Positions 28,492 to 35,042 of a DNA stretch of 64,000 bases are shown in pieces; within the stretch, counting starts at the first letter, position 1; each line of letters starts with the position of its first letter. Source of the stretch: Microcaldota archaeon (lineage in GTDB: Archaea; Micrarchaeota; Micrarchaeia; Micrarchaeales; CABMGC01); assembly GCA_021818995.1 (NCBI GenBank), contig JAKASP010000001.1:1-64000 (forward strand), read 5' to 3'. The notes under the pieces were generated by a model. That model worked only from the letters and a program-made list of their open reading frames with translations. It did no database searches and was not told where the DNA came from. Made by a program: the position numbers and the translations under genes.

Positions 28492-28674
28492 ATGGGCATC
28501 GAGAAACTGCTTGACACCAATGTACTTAAGGCGAGCGCGATTGTTTCTAGCGTTTACATCTCAATTCTTATCGCAGGCTTTCCGTTTTCCCGCAAGAGCG
28601 AGACTGTTGTTAAGCAGGCGGTTGGTTTTGTTACGCTGTTCTTCATTGCGCTTTTCGTTTACTTGGTGGTGTAA
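28492..28674 (+). CDS. 60-aa two-TM protein
   Basis: MGIEKLLDTNVLKASAIVSSVYISILIAGFPFSRKSETVVKQAVGFVTLFFIALFVYLVV; internal ATG of the longer ORF, immediately after the preceding CDS. Confidence 0.5.
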   Translation: MGIEKLLDTNVLKASAIVSSVYISILIAGFPFSRKSETVVKQAVGFVTLFFIALFVYLVV

Positions 28675-28952
28675 TGCGATGGATGCAGAAGATATACAAG
28701 CAAGGCATAATGGAAAATAGGTTTGCGATAGCAGTGTCTGTTTTCGCGAGTCTCGCAATCACCTTTGCGGTGATACTAGAACTGTTCGGCGCCGCTGTTT
28801 ATTGGCCGATTGGCTTGATTGCGGATTTTGCGTTTAGCGCGGCTCTATATCGCACTTGCAAGCCCTACGAGATTAACGCTGGTGTCGGAGAAGTTGCGCT
28901 GCTTATTGCTCTCAATCTTTTCATCTTCTGCACCTGCACATTCGTTGCGTGA
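28674..28952 (+). CDS. small multi-TM membrane protein
   Basis: 92 aa hydrophobic ORF overlapping the previous stop. Confidence 0.5.
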   Translation: MRWMQKIYKQGIMENRFAIAVSVFASLAITFAVILELFGAAVYWPIGLIADFAFSAALYRTCKPYEINAGVGEVALLIALNLFIFCTCTFVA

Positions 28953-29032
28953 ATGCGAGCAGTGCATGCTTAACTAAATGTTTTTAAACCAGGGAAAGCA
29001 TAGACACGGTATCAAACGTATGAGTGAAGGGA

Positions 29033-29797
29033 ATGGAGAAAGCGATAGCAATCGTCGGATGCATGGACTGGAGACTTGTTGGCCTTTTTGCTGTTCTGGA
29101 CAACGAGCAGATGAGCCTGGAGTCAAAGACGGATGCGGCGCGCAAGCTGTTCAAGAACCCAGGAAGCGAAGGGTACAGAAAATTCATCGAACTAGTAAAG
29201 CGTACACACGGGCATCACGTAATCGTGCTTGCGAATGCAGGCGCGAACCCGCAGGGCCTGCCGAAGTCTCTCGCCGATATAGCAGGCAGCAGGGAACTGG
29301 AAGCAATCATAACGGTTGGCCACCTTTCCTCTACCGACGGCTTCAAACTTGGATGTGGAGGCAAGAAGGCAGTAGTGGGAATGCTGACCGACATGGCTAA
29401 CGGCAAAGCTCCTAACGATGATGCTTACAGGCACTTCGATTTGGCCATGTTCGCGCAGGAGATGGAAAACCGCGGAACAACGCTCGACAAGTTCAAGGAG
29501 ATGGGCGACACAGGAAAACTCGAATGCGTAGACAAGGCGTGGCCATCGGTCGTGACAAACGCCGCGAAGAAGTTTTCCAAGCAGGTGGATTTTCTAGTCA
29601 TAGACACCAACGACCTGAAGCTACATTCCGATGGAGCCCACATCTACAGGATAACGGGTGACAAGGAAGACACTAAGATCGATATAGGCTTTGCTGTCTC
29701 GCGCATGCCTGTTGAATTGAACAAAACGCTCTTTCTGAATGACTGGAAAGTGGCTGGATATTCTAAGTCGCAGGCAAAGAAGACAAAGGTCGCCTGA
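29033..29797 (+). CDS. beta-carbonic anhydrase-like protein with altered metal site
   Basis: GCMDWR (cf. CxDSR), VIVLANAGAN (cf. RNAG), IITVGH (cf. GHxxCG, Cys missing). Confidence 0.5.
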   Translation: MEKAIAIVGCMDWRLVGLFAVLDNEQMSLESKTDAARKLFKNPGSEGYRKFIELVKRTHGHHVIVLANAGANPQGLPKSLADIAGSRELEAIITVGHLSSTDGFKLGCGGKKAVVGMLTDMANGKAPNDDAYRHFDLAMFAQEMENRGTTLDKFKEMGDTGKLECVDKAWPSVVTNAAKKFSKQVDFLVIDTNDLKLHSDGAHIYRITGDKEDTKIDIGFAVSRMPVELNKTLFLNDWKVAGYSKSQAKKTKVA

Positions 29798-29823
29798 ACT
29801 TGGGAGTCACGCAGGAAAATGTC

Positions 29824-29837
29824 CGTGGGCCCGGAGA
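29824..29837. repeat. putative distal att site
   Basis: CGTGGGCCCGGAGA, same orientation as 33355-33368; similarity continues with gaps (GATTT...CTCG.TC). Confidence 0.55.
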
Positions 29838-29854
29838 TTTCCGACCCCTCGCTC

Positions 29855-29874
29855 GTGCGCTCTTGGGAGCGCAC
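29855..29874. repeat. inverted repeat/hairpin
   Basis: GTGCGCTC-TTGG-GAGCGCAC, 8-bp perfect stem. Confidence 0.6.
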
Positions 29875-29979
29875 TCGCTTCTCTCTTCTTTTTCGCTGAA
29901 CCGATATTGCTTGCCAGCGAGCGAGACCACAAGGGCGAGCGAGCGTACTGCCCGGATTTCAGCGTTTGCCCTCAGCGGC

Positions 29980-30020
29980 GCGGGCTCCTCGTGGGCTTCA
30001 AAGCCCACGTTTCCGCCCGC
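29980..30020. repeat. two-stem inverted repeat
   Basis: GCGGGC-tcct-CGTGGGCT-TCAA-AGCCCACG-tttcc-GCCCGC. Confidence 0.6.
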
Positions 30021-30083
30021 CTATTCCTACGAGTCAAGAACGTCAGGCTCAAGCCCGACGCTTGCATTTGTAGGTGAAATAAT

Positions 30084-30989
30084 ATGTACAGAGGATATCC
30101 GAGCGTACAAGAGAACCGAACCCATTTCGAGGTTTTGAATATGAGAGTGAGTGGAAACAGCGTACAGATGCAAGGCTTCGCTTATAGGAAGCTACCAGAA
30201 CCCACAGGCAAGCCTAAGGACTACGTAAAGGAAAGGCTACCACAGATGGCCAAGTGGGAGATAGAGGAGCTAAGGAGCGAGATAAAGGAGCACTACCTGA
30301 GCCGTTTCAAGAGACCGCGCATAGCCAAGTACGGCACGCTCAACAAGGGCTTCGAGGAGCAGGAGCTCAGGGTATTCCTCGCTCACATAGACAACGAGAA
30401 GCATCGACTTTTGTTCGAGTATCAGGCCAATCTCGCCTTGCGGGTAGGTGAAGCTGTAAAAGTAAATATTAAGGATATCAAGCCAGAGAGCAGGGAACTC
30501 ATAGTCTATACCGAGAAGGCGAGGCAGCCCGACAGCCTACGTATTCCTCTCCCGCTATTCAAGGAGACGCTTGACTTCATACACGCACACAGCAGCGAGA
30601 TAGAGCAGCACGAGGGCTATATCTTCTTCAAGGATTCGCGCTACAGCAAGCACGGAGGCCCACATCTTGACCTTAATTATGTGCGAAACATATTCAGAGA
30701 GTACATAGCTGATACTGGGCTCGATGAAACCTACGACGTGAGCGAAGAAAGGAATGGGAGAAGGCCCAGACGCCTACACAGATTGACTACGCACTCTCTA
30801 AGGCATTACGCGATAACCCGCTTTGCGCGGAGCACGAACGGGAACGTGGTGCTTACAGCACACTTCGCGCGGCATAGGAATCCGAGCACTACGAACACCT
30901 ACATCGCGCTTGACAAGAAGGAGCTCTACGACACTATTGACGCGATTAGCGTGAGCGAGATTGCGATGCTTAAGAAAAAAATGAAATAA
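30084..30989 (+). CDS. tyrosine recombinase/integrase
   Basis: ANLALRVGEAVKVNIKDI (Arg box I), THSLRHYAITRFA, HFARHRNPSTTNTYIALDK (H..R...H...Y); start could be the internal ATG at 30141. Confidence 0.85.
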   Translation: MYRGYPSVQENRTHFEVLNMRVSGNSVQMQGFAYRKLPEPTGKPKDYVKERLPQMAKWEIEELRSEIKEHYLSRFKRPRIAKYGTLNKGFEEQELRVFLAHIDNEKHRLLFEYQANLALRVGEAVKVNIKDIKPESRELIVYTEKARQPDSLRIPLPLFKETLDFIHAHSSEIEQHEGYIFFKDSRYSKHGGPHLDLNYVRNIFREYIADTGLDETYDVSEERNGRRPRRLHRLTTHSLRHYAITRFARSTNGNVVLTAHFARHRNPSTTNTYIALDKKELYDTIDAISVSEIAMLKKKMK

Positions 30990-30994
30990 AATCA

Positions 30995-31879
30995 CTAAGA
31001 AAAACCTTTGAAAGAACCATTGTTAAACTCGTTATAAATACGTTCTCCATCGTTATTAAATATAAAAATGCTATGTCTTGCAACCCCATTTGGCGCTTCT
31101 TGACTTGGTGTAGGTTTTTCTTTAAAAACATACGGACTACCTTTCAGAGATTCTTCATATGCTTGTCCGATTTTTTTAACTTTAGAAACATTAGAACCAG
31201 CACCATGAACGGCTATGTATTTTTTATTTTGCTTTATCAAATCAGATATTTTCTCGATGATTTCAGCTTCGCTCGTTTTTTTATGAACAAAAAAGATGCT
31301 TTCATAAGCAGTTATGTCTACTAATATTTTTTCTATGATTTCTTTATCACGTAATCCTATATCATTGATGTAACCTAATGCTTCTGGGATATATCCTGCT
31401 GTGTATAAATTACAAAAATGTCTAACAAAAATATTATCTCTGCCAAGCTCCTCTTTCCTTTGTGCTGCGATATCACGATCTCCTGCTTCGTATAAATCTT
31501 TTATATATTGTGAAGCTTTAATTAGTCCTTTGAATTTAGCACTTAACTCATTGACAAACGGAAATGGAAATTCGTGAGTTTTATTATATTCGGAATAATC
31601 CTTATACTCCTCTTCAAAGTCAGGATATACGAGCTCGGAATTCGAGCCTTTGCTCAATAATTCTTTGATTACCTCAGCGTTAGTTGAGACATTGCCAAAA
31701 TATACGTGGGCGCCTTTTTCTATTATGAAAACATTTGGATTATTCGCATTGATTGCATAATTTTTAAGTTCTTGATTAAGTTCTTCATTTTTAAATCTGA
31801 ATGGTTGTTTTGGGCCAGATTTTATCTTACTGAGAAGAAACTCGGCTGCTTTTAATAGGAAGGCGGTGATCGGGTCCAT
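30995..31879 (-). CDS. hypothetical island cargo protein
   Basis: 294 aa AT-rich ORF; no recognised motif. Confidence 0.5.
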   Translation of the reverse strand: MDPITAFLLKAAEFLLSKIKSGPKQPFRFKNEELNQELKNYAINANNPNVFIIEKGAHVYFGNVSTNAEVIKELLSKGSNSELVYPDFEEEYKDYSEYNKTHEFPFPFVNELSAKFKGLIKASQYIKDLYEAGDRDIAAQRKEELGRDNIFVRHFCNLYTAGYIPEALGYINDIGLRDKEIIEKILVDITAYESIFFVHKKTSEAEIIEKISDLIKQNKKYIAVHGAGSNVSKVKKIGQAYEESLKGSPYVFKEKPTPSQEAPNGVARHSIFIFNNDGERIYNEFNNGSFKGFS

Positions 31880-31884
31880 TAGTT

Positions 31885-32181
31885 CTACCTGCTCGCCAAA
31901 TATTCACTTAGACTATTTAGATTGTTTTTAATGAAAACATGTGGCGAATTCGCAGGTTTAATTATGCCAATTTCTCTGACTTTGATATCGCTACCGCTTG
32001 ATTGAACTCTTATTCCTTCTGGAGATAATACGTATCCTTCAGAATCAATAGTGTACCCTAAAATTTTGACAATCTCTCGAATCTGTGCTCTTTTTGCATA
32101 TATAGTGACGGCTCCTTCTCCCTTTAATTCTTCTGGAGTTAGTTCTTCTATTTCAAAATCAGAAATTTCGGATATAGCCAT
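31885..32181 (-). CDS. hypothetical island cargo protein (98 aa)
   Basis: MAISEISDFEIEELTPEELKGEGAVTIYAKRAQIREIVKILGY...; start at ATG 32181 preferred over 32439. Confidence 0.45.
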   Translation of the reverse strand: MAISEISDFEIEELTPEELKGEGAVTIYAKRAQIREIVKILGYTIDSEGYVLSPEGIRVQSSGSDIKVREIGIIKPANSPHVFIKNNLNSLSEYLASR

Positions 32182-32414
32182 CTTCTTGCCTCTCTCCTCA
32201 AAAACATTAAAACCGATACGCTTAAAGTCCTTCCTTTTTTGTGGCAGTTTGCTTCTTTTCTTAATAGCATTAGTATTTTTGTCATTATAAGCTTTGGCTT
32301 TACGCTTCGGTTTTGCTATCGTTTTTCTCAATGCCTGCTTTCCGAAGGGTTTTTGCTTAAATTTCCTCAAGTGCACTACCTCTAAGAAAGCGGTACAGAA
32401 GAAGACTAACAAGG

Positions 32415-32666
32415 TTGCTGGACACAACCCTGCAAGCATTAGTGAGAATTGATGCGATGCTGAAGCTTAAAAGCAGAAAGGATTCAGAAATATTTTTCTT
32501 GAGTATCTTTCTGTTCTCGCTTTTATATGCCGTATTGATATTATACAATCAAATGTTATTCTTTATCCTTTTGTCTTCTGTAATTATCTCAGTTCTCCTT
32601 TTCGCTAAGCCATTTGATTATGACAAAAATAGAGAAGAAAAACAGAAAGAAAAACCCCCCAACTAA
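32415..32666 (+). CDS. small two-TM protein
   Basis: FFLSIFLFSLLYAVLILYNQMLFFILLSSVIISVLLFA; start uncertain. Confidence 0.35.
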   Translation: MLDTTLQALVRIDAMLKLKSRKDSEIFFLSIFLFSLLYAVLILYNQMLFFILLSSVIISVLLFAKPFDYDKNREEKQKEKPPN

Positions 32667-33224
32667 ATGTCGATAGTTATTCATATCGAGTATAAGTCCT
32701 CCGATAAGACCTGCAATTAATACAGGAATCCAGATAAATTGCTTCTGAAAAAGTTTTTGTTTATTTCGGTACGCATCTGGTAACATAATTATGAGAATGA
32801 TGACCATTAACGAAAAAGTAATTATCGAAGTGCCTGTTGCAGGATAACCTTCGTAATACCAAGTCACTATGCCTGCCAATAAAGTTGCAATTATGCTATT
32901 TAGGAAAACCCATTTGCTCGCTAAGAATTGCCTAAAATTTCGAGATATACTGCGATAAAAATCATAGAGAAAAAGCAAAAGCATAGGTAAAAAGAAAGTG
33001 ACAAACAGACCTTCGGCGACGTTAGGCATAGTACGTATTTCTTCGCCATTAAACGCCGACGTTATCAGACAAATGCTCTTTACAAAATTTGTATTGTTGA
33101 GCCCATTTATGCAATCTATCTGAGTAAAAGTCATAAGGAGGAGTACGACAAAATATGCAACCATAAAGATGAATGGCATTTTCATCATTGGAGAAGTTAT
33201 ATGATAGAGTTCCCGCAAGTTCAT
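32589..33224 (-). CDS. multi-TM island membrane protein
   Basis: MNLRELYHITSPMMKMPFIFMVAYFVVLLLMTF...; the longer ORF to 33401 would overlap the tRNA. Confidence 0.5.
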   Translation of the reverse strand: MNLRELYHITSPMMKMPFIFMVAYFVVLLLMTFTQIDCINGLNNTNFVKSICLITSAFNGEEIRTMPNVAEGLFVTFFLPMLLLFLYDFYRSISRNFRQFLASKWVFLNSIIATLLAGIVTWYYEGYPATGTSIITFSLMVIILIIMLPDAYRNKQKLFQKQFIWIPVLIAGLIGGLILDMNNYRHLVGGFFFLFFFSIFVIIKWLSEKEN

Positions 33225-33356
33225 AGCTGCGTCTGAACCCCACTTCTTTAAATACTCTCCCAGAGAGCTAACAGCAGTTTTCAGCTGCGTTTTATGTCTC
33301 AGAATACCCCTCTTTTTCCAGCACCGAACTCTTACACTATCGACGATAAGTATACG

Positions 33357-33445
33357 TGGGCCCGGAGAGATTTGAACTCTCGATCTCCCGATTTCTGCCA
33401 TTTGGCTATCAGTCGGACGCTCTAACCAAGCTGAGCTACGAGCCC
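33357..33445 (-). tRNA. tRNA-Ile (GAT) with 14-nt intron at 33393-33406
   Basis: Acceptor GGGCTCG/CGGGCCC, anticodon stem TCCGA/TCGGG, loop CTGATA^intron^A, T arm GAGAG-TTCAAAT-CTCTC; CCA not encoded. Confidence 0.92.
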
Positions 33446-33482: not shown

Positions 33483-35042
33483 CTATCCCCACAGCAGGTT
33501 GTAGGAGAAGCACTGCGCAGCGAGAATGTTGCGCTGTACAGTCTGGTTGCTTATCGCACGCGTGGGCAGGTTGTAGAACCAGGAATAGAACCGATCGTAG
33601 CTCTGGCACGAAGGCTGGTTCGCGGGCAGATCGGCCAGGGGGATTATCATGTACGTGCCCGCGATCATCTCGGACGAGTTCGATGCCTGGAGCTCGAGGT
33701 TCGTGTTGTACACAAGGAACTCTGTGTTGTTCGAGATCAGGTCGAAGACCTGCTCCTCCGCCCCCTTTGAGTTGAAGAACCGCATCTGACCGAGGACAGT
33801 GTTGTTGCTAGAGAGCCCGCTCAGCACGTTGCTGTTCGGCGAGCTGAGGAAGAGCAGCATTGCGTTCGTCACGTTTATAGTGCGGTTGGTCAGGGTTATG
33901 AAGACGCTGGTGCCGTTGGGGTTGGAGATTGCGGCGTAGACGAACTTGCCCCTGCTCAGCGCCCCCTGCACCGCGCTTACCGCGAGAGGGTTGCTGTAAT
34001 TGAAAATCAGCCTGTTCTGCAGCGCAAGCGGCGAGATCGCCAGCGCAGTGGAGTAGTTGAGCGTCATGAGCACGTATGCTATACTTAGCGCGAATGCCAG
34101 CGCGATCGGCCACAGCGGCGCGTTTGTTGCCCGTTCCTTCTTCCTGTGCTTTGCCCGTTTCGCGATCTCGAGTCCGAAGAATTTCGACGTGAGGATCATT
34201 GCGATTATCGCGACGTAGAAGAGTATCACGCCGATGAAGTTGTGGATCAGGAGTGCGGTTGCGTTGGGGCCGTTGTTCAGCCAGAAGACAGATATACCGA
34301 GCATCCTCGCGATGTTGAGCACGAAGAGCAAGGCTATGCCTGCCGCAACCCAGATCGCCTTATCCTTAATCCTGCCCTCGTAGAAGTACGCTACCGGGAT
34401 AAGGAAGAGCGCCAGTGCCACAAATATGCCTATGCTCACGCACGCCTGCCCTATGCCTATGGAGTAGCCGTTGGCGCTTATCGTTATCGGCGCGGAGTAC
34501 TGCACCGCGCTCACGAACGGCTTGAGCATGTTGTAGATAAGCAGAGTGTTGAACTGGGTGAACGCATTGAACTGGAGCAGGAGGGGAAAGAGCACGATTG
34601 GCGATGCGAGGAGCGTGTATGCGATTGCGCCCCTGAACTTCTTCGCGTTGCCGATTCCGAAGAGCAGGCAGACAAGCGAGAAGAGGGCGAGCGGCATGAG
34701 CAGCATGTCTATCCTGAAGCTTGTGAAGAAGACTGTGAAGTAGAGCCTTGAAAGCAGGATAAGCGCCAGGAAGAGGACGAACGCTGACGCGCCAACAATT
34801 GCGCTCTTCCTGTCAACATTCGGCTCCGGCCTGGACTTAAGCGAGAAGAGCAGGAAGAGGGGCAGCATCAGTATCGGGACTATAACGTACGTCGAAGGGT
34901 CCGCGTCGCTCACTGCCGCTGGCGTTATGTACAGGGAGGTCGAGAGCAGGATTATTGTCGCGGCAACGAGGAGCACTCCTGCAATGTTCCTGTCGTATCG
35001 CATCGTATCATCATTGTCCTCAGCCGATATAGACCTCATCAC
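33483..35042 (-). CDS. exosortase/archaeosortase-family membrane protein
   Basis: Polytopic; GIGQACVSIGIF (catalytic Cys region), VLNIARMLGI (Arg), LIHNFIGVILFYVAI (His); large extracellular C-terminal domain. Confidence 0.75.
   Translation of the reverse strand: MMRSISAEDNDDTMRYDRNIAGVLLVAATIILLSTSLYITPAAVSDADPSTYVIVPILMLPLFLLFSLKSRPEPNVDRKSAIVGASAFVLFLALILLSRLYFTVFFTSFRIDMLLMPLALFSLVCLLFGIGNAKKFRGAIAYTLLASPIVLFPLLLQFNAFTQFNTLLIYNMLKPFVSAVQYSAPITISANGYSIGIGQACVSIGIFVALALFLIPVAYFYEGRIKDKAIWVAAGIALLFVLNIARMLGISVFWLNNGPNATALLIHNFIGVILFYVAIIAMILTSKFFGLEIAKRAKHRKKERATNAPLWPIALAFALSIAYVLMTLNYSTALAISPLALQNRLIFNYSNPLAVSAVQGALSRGKFVYAAISNPNGTSVFITLTNRTINVTNAMLLFLSSPNSNVLSGLSSNNTVLGQMRFFNSKGAEEQVFDLISNNTEFLVYNTNLELQASNSSEMIAGTYMIIPLADLPANQPSCQSYDRFYSWFYNLPTRAISNQTVQRNILAAQCFSYNLLWG

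Follow-up and report, generated by a model that had tools for sequence, protein, structure and literature searches.

A probable small integrated element at the tRNA-Ile(GAT) gene of a Micrarchaeota archaeon, and its family of constant chassis and changing cargo

Integrons unite a tyrosine recombinase chassis, exchangeable cargo and a resident promoter, while tycheposons and other hitchers are tRNA-targeted tyrosine-recombinase elements of bacterial hosts that carry variable cargo, lack transfer genes of their own and in part possess packaging genes. Tycheposons and other hitcher elements are named in PMC11389934. Archaeal integrative elements that target tRNA genes are likewise a known kind, and the nearest concept to what is described here is that of the thaumarchaeal cryptic integrated elements, which measure 2.6-98 kb (median 17 kb) and use integrases of several families (Krupovic et al. 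2019, PMC6563490). The words DPANN, Micrarchaeum and Nanoarchae- are absent from the text of the 2021 review of archaeal tyrosine recombinases (PMC8371274), and the open-access papers that we searched contained no description of a miniature Micrarchaeota family with exchangeable cargo, although one may exist elsewhere. Here we analyse a stretch of 64,000 nucleotides (the window) from the genome of a Micrarchaeota archaeon, in which positions 29824-33368 very probably constitute a mobile element, some 3.5 kb long, in its integrated state, one member of a Micrarchaeota-wide family that combines a fixed chassis with variable cargo.

The element is delimited by CGTGGGCCCGGAGA, a 14-bp exact direct repeat on one strand (Table 1). 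An earlier note, made from the sequence alone, had described this repeat as ending in the 3' end of tRNA-Ile, with looser similarity continuing inward and an integrase starting some 250 bp inside the distal copy, and each of these particulars was borne out: both copies are present in the same orientation, the right one contains the final 12 nt of the tRNA, the inward similarity is real though weak (74% over 38 nt, extending into the tRNA T-arm), and the integrase starts 247 bp inward of the left core. The same note had worried that the repeat might be common by chance; only two copies of CGTGGGCCCGGAGA occur in the 485-kb assembly, even when up to one mismatch is allowed, and a match of at least 14 bp to the tRNA 3' end arose in 1 of 2000 shuffles of the island. 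The target gene (Rfam RF00005, 58.9 bits) was missed by an initial scan because of its 14-nt intron, and an intron-aware scan labelled it Ser. We overruled that label and assigned the gene to tRNA-Ile(GAT), because the anticodon loop reads CTGATA, the intron, then A, which gives the anticodon GAT, and because relatives have, next to the same archaeosortase gene, syntenic tRNA-Ile(GAT) genes that lack the intron. The left boundary was set at 29824 because the sister islands described below stop at the same core and no further core copy lies leftward.

All six catalytic residues of the integrase (R120, K145, H237, R240, H264 and Y273) are conserved across 30 homologues, and its predicted fold, confident over the catalytic domain, finds its best structural match in the archaeal Xer 4a8e (Z 19.7, residues 84-293). 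PF00589 was the sole domain matched in the Pfam search; the customary N-terminal DNA-binding domain may be reduced, because just two helices, of moderate confidence, are predicted there after about 40 disordered residues. An identity as XerA was rejected (NF040815 scored 45.3 bits, or 44.5 in a second run, far below the curated cut-off of 220 bits), and an SSV-type suicidal integrase was ruled out, the core lying ahead of an intact integrase open reading frame (ORF) and not within the gene. As a separate observation, none of the eight genomes of the genus (G000-G007, our genome handles), two of them more than 90% complete, has a XerA above the curated cut-off, and chromosome dimer resolution in the genus may use something else. 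The complete active site, the direct repeats at the tRNA 3' end, the intact tRNA and four island-free congeners together fit the geometry of tRNA-targeted integration that the earlier note had proposed. In such an event the integrase would have recombined the core of a circular element with a target made up of the final 12 nt of tRNA-Ile(GAT) and two bases beside them; the tRNA would have stayed whole, and another copy of the core would have come to lie at the far end. It is on these attachment sites that the enzyme would act.

The comparison with island-free strains that the earlier note had suggested also came out as expected, save that the exact left flank is not common to them: in G001, G004, G006 and G007 the tRNA-Ile gene stands without an island and host genes come next. 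In G001 a homologue of the window gene at 28674-28952 sits 20 bp past the tRNA, while in the other three one or more other genes lie between the two. The G001 arrangement could mean that the true insertion is larger, about 28953-33356, gene 29024-29797 (immediately left of the island) having been brought in by this element or by one that used the same tRNA earlier, and it accords with this that the gene has no relative in the genus. We consider the larger insertion unlikely, since no third core copy is present near 28960, the guanine-plus-cytosine (GC) content of the gene is host-like (about 52%), G004, G006 and G007 hold another short gene at this place without an island, and the chassis homology of the sister islands stops at the core.

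The closest integrases recovered by the genome search are those of G004 and G007 (88% and 85% identical), which belong to sister islands, both at tRNA-Val(CAC) and both with 18-bp repeats. The window island has in common with them the integrase (81% DNA identity) and some 110-130 bp of end B, the conserved tRNA-side arm (75-90%), and no cargo matches; the equivalent of end A, the arm between core and integrase, is conserved between the two sisters and matches the window just loosely. The tRNA-Val site is empty in G001, because the gene that flanks the G007 island sits there roughly 0.1-0.15 kb from tRNA-Val. In the integrase phylogeny the window's copy is nested among four tRNA-Val copies (support 100/98), and its lineage has switched from tRNA-Val to tRNA-Ile. 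On the integrase tree, which has 65 members, 22 changes of tRNA isotype are counted against 45.9 in shuffles (a few islands called Ser or Tyr by the intron-aware scan having been relabelled Ile, and several Arg relabelled Trp, on our own reading of the sequence and not by a program), and targets are therefore inherited yet able to switch. Integrases that share 92-95% identity lie next to tRNA-Trp, -Arg and -Pro; the genomes concerned, G001, G020 and G091, come from different genera and families, and the likeness probably indicates recent transfer.

Of 98 related genomes, 63 contain the family integrase, some of them in 9 to 12 copies with numerous fragments, and its relatives in named genomes come nearly all from Candidatus Micrarchaeota assemblies. 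We examined 80 further loci in addition to the window, and nearly every family integrase adjoins a tRNA gene. Defined by a repeat of at least 13 bp at the tRNA 3' end, 31 islands were obtained, with a mean length of 3.9 kb and a median of 4.2 kb (range 1.8-6.5 kb). Some of these may be wrong: of 50 tRNA genes with a downstream family integrase, 32 have such a repeat on the integrase side, 2 on the opposite side and none inverted. Two layouts occur: the integrase is either distal and facing the tRNA, as in the window, or adjacent to the tRNA and facing away. The shortness of the window's repeat, just 14 bp, might suggest a chance repetition beside a resident recombinase gene, with no mobile element at all; this is highly improbable for a unique repeat placed precisely at a tRNA 3' end, the more so as 30 other islands are laid out alike, the controls came out near zero and relatives have island-free sites. 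Two further observations concern other members of the family. An island at tRNA-Val(GAC) in G004 (contig C6) has a perfect direct repeat of 65 bp (locus L031, 6231-6295 and 9270-9334) in place of the usual 13-30 bp, which suggests that the insertion is very recent or that the core differs. The window's genome itself carries a second family integrase (L030, 5783-6652; G000:C2, about 93.8 kb) beside a long-intron tRNA-Trp, and relatives of that integrase lie at tRNA-Trp in G004 and at tRNA-Lys in G007.

Between the constant parts, the cargo turns over. Integrase identity reaches 70% or more in 24 island pairs, and in 18 of these less than 10% of the cargo matches when compared as protein, a count that overstates separate events because islands of the same subclade are not independent; in the closer pairs the end B sequences mostly show 74-91% identity, the truncated island L117 excepted, and the 92 cargo ORFs of the 31 islands include just a handful of related pairs. 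The earlier note had called the ORFs between the window's repeats AT-rich, which is right for the cargo (about 33-37% GC) and wrong for the integrase (50% GC), and family-wide the GC content of the integrase exceeds that of the cargo in 30 of 31 islands (p 1.3e-6). Recognisable cargo across the family includes restriction-modification and toxin genes, with four DNA methylases, Tsp45I and Mrr-type endonuclease domains, M.Eco57I, HNH, Vsr, AbiEii and a ParA-like ATPase, and about half of the large cargo proteins checked singly had no Pfam match. Such genes would presumably benefit the host or the element, by defence or by addiction.

In the window the cargo extends from about 10 bp past end B to within 5 bp of the stop codon of the integrase. 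End B contains a TATA-like TATTTAAA (33247-33254, minus strand) 22 nt ahead of the ATG of the 211-aa gene; leaderless archaeal promoters are expected to show this spacing, and the box may drive the cargo. It also contains GTTCGG (33324-33329, minus strand), a motif whose start lies 25-29 nt from the tRNA end in 10 of the 31 islands and 68-70 nt from it in five more, again counting related islands more than once, against an expectation from interior density of 0.035 islands per position window; we read GTTCGG as a candidate binding site for the integrase or a partner. A longer listed start of the 211-aa gene, within the tRNA, was judged spurious, and its product gave a weak match to PF23021, below the cut-off. 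A search for the 294-aa protein across the phylum, in 301 genomes, gave a single convincing homologue, a remote one in G253 (score 103 against a shuffle maximum of 70). The earlier note's alternative, the same ORFs elsewhere without the integrase, was not borne out, for even this homologue has a family integrase beside it. The G253 locus contains a tRNA-Lys, a broken integrase of the same family and a PIN-domain toxin-like gene, and a 108-aa ORF precedes the homologue there, placed like the window's 184-aa ORF; the similarity of the two is not significant (78 of 1000 shuffles scored as high). The other cargo ORFs of the window had no match among the fetched loci, and no relatives of the 294-aa protein occurred in viral contigs.

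Table 1. Features of the tRNA-Ile island and its target gene (positions in the window).
Feature	Position	Strand	Evidence and remarks
Distal attachment-site copy, core CGTGGGCCCGGAGA	29824..29837	+	Exact repeat of 33355-33368; chassis of orthologous islands stops at the equivalent point
End A, arm between core and integrase	29838..30083	+	Inverted repeats, e.g. GTGCGCTCTTGGGAGCGCAC; CGTGGGCTTCAAAGCCCACG
Tyrosine recombinase (integrase), 301 aa	30084..30989	+	PF00589 E 7.7e-12; phrog_216 E 9e-22; alternative start at internal ATG 30141
Cargo gene, 294 aa	30995..31879	-	No family; stop codon 5 bp from integrase stop
Cargo gene, up to 184 aa	31885..32439	-	ORF, no family; true start probably internal
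Small ORF, 83 aa	32415..32666	+	ORF list only; doubtful gene, overlaps neighbours
Cargo gene, 211 aa, hydrophobic (membrane) protein	32589..33224	-	ORF
End B, conserved tRNA-side arm	33234..33354	-	75-90% identical to end B in G004 and G007 islands
Proximal attachment-site copy	33355..33368	+	Overlaps tRNA 3' end
tRNA-Ile(GAT), target site, intron ~33393-33406	33357..33445	-	Rfam, intron-aware scan, synteny

The plan of the family is core, end A and integrase at one end, and end B and core at the other, around a slot whose cargo differs in nearly every copy. Two of the 31 islands, in G004 and in G080 (at tRNA-Trp), are composite: besides the usual end B each has another in its interior, accompanied by core-like sequence, and the units marked off in this way, about 0.3 and 1.0 kb long, contain no integrase. 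These units, and the swapping of cargo between the integrase stop codon and end B, could point to an integron-like capture in which the cargo is exchanged together with its end B, the integrase inserting such units in tandem and a chassis promoter serving them. That reading is quite doubtful: composites number just two in 31, a free-standing end B was present in none of 59 relatives, and tandem integration followed by deletion would give the same appearance. We attach equally little weight to its broadest form, an archaeal cassette system in which an integrase lineage keeps a promoter-bearing chassis, captures and exchanges cassettes (mostly defence and dark-matter genes) and spreads by tRNA hopping among ultra-small archaeal species.

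Because the element has no recognisable replication or transfer genes, it would presumably move between cells with outside help. This raises the question of whether it is a satellite of a virus or plasmid, merely parked by its integrase and packaged or transferred by a helper. Its small size would suit a satellite, as would the 25 Pfam families listed for the 31 islands' cargo, none of which is a capsid or transfer family, the one ParA-like protein, and the similar integrases in different genera and families, which imply transfer; on the other side, the family integrase was absent from plasmid and phage records, with just two distant matches in viral contigs, and no packaging signal is known. 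We regard a satellite as a possibility to be kept in mind, though less likely than not.

An integrated mobile element at 29824-33368 is the interpretation that we prefer with high confidence, and several results count against it. The window cargo has no family in Pfam, NCBIfam, PHROGs or PADLOC, and the structure predicted for the 294-aa protein, made without relatives, is poor and unusable (mean predicted local distance difference test score, pLDDT, 49). No exact empty site with an identical left flank is available, because gene 29024-29797 is absent from the genus. Excision would be expected to yield an element junction (attP) of GATAAGTATA-CGTGGGCCCGGAGA-TTTCCGACCCC and a joined flank of GGAAAATGTC-CGTGGGCCCGGAGA-GATTTGAACTC; the former was not found in viral contigs, the sole data searched, and no excised circle was seen. 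Finally, the genome assembly is 63% complete.

The surroundings of the target gene offer some observations of their own. An archaeosortase/exosortase-like gene (TIGR04178, window 33483-35042) adjoins tRNA-Ile and is syntenic across the family. Next to tRNA-Ile lie short genes, differing among congeners and in opposite orientations (window 29024-29797; loci L061, L062 and L063), whose CMD.R motif recalls beta-carbonic anhydrases, and the window's gene has no Pfam match. The 14-nt intron of tRNA-Ile(GAT) is present in the window genome and G002 and absent in congeners G001, G004, G006 and G007 (window 33393-33406; loci L064, 3763-3851, and L060-L063), a case of gain or loss within one genus. In G033 and G030 (L070, L074), sequence much like the integrase-upstream arm of the G028 island lies downstream of tRNA-Ile, with no integrase found there, and may possibly represent element remnants.

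Micrarchaeota genomes are very small, and how they gain genes is little understood. A single integrase family that is present in about two thirds of the sampled relatives, and whose insertions nearly all bring different genes, would be a main route by which genes flow in the lineage, and its islands would be a defined place in which to seek new defence genes. The window copy and its two nearest relatives, which differ in target and have about 85% protein identity in common, form a natural series for studying the change of tRNA target.

Compared with the thaumarchaeal cryptic integrated elements, the Micrarchaeota islands have a single integrase family, a size of 1.8-6.5 kb, conserved ends and swapped cargo. 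As with the pNOB8-type (non-suicidal) integrases (Badel et al. 2021, PMC8371274), the PF00589 recombinase is intact after integration at a tRNA gene; the pNOB8 and Xer families have a SAM-like N-terminal Pfam domain, whereas none was found in the window integrase, whose model shows two N-terminal helices. By description the islands resemble tycheposons in being tRNA-targeted, in their variable cargo and in lacking transfer genes, and differ from them in their archaeal hosts, tycheposons being bacterial and partly equipped with packaging genes. Unlike integrons, they target a tRNA gene and rarely form arrays, and of the marks of an integron, such as IntI-type features, attC sites and cassette arrays, the sole trace seen was an end B repeated in 2 of 31 islands; what the two have in common is a tyrosine recombinase chassis, exchangeable cargo and a resident promoter-like box.
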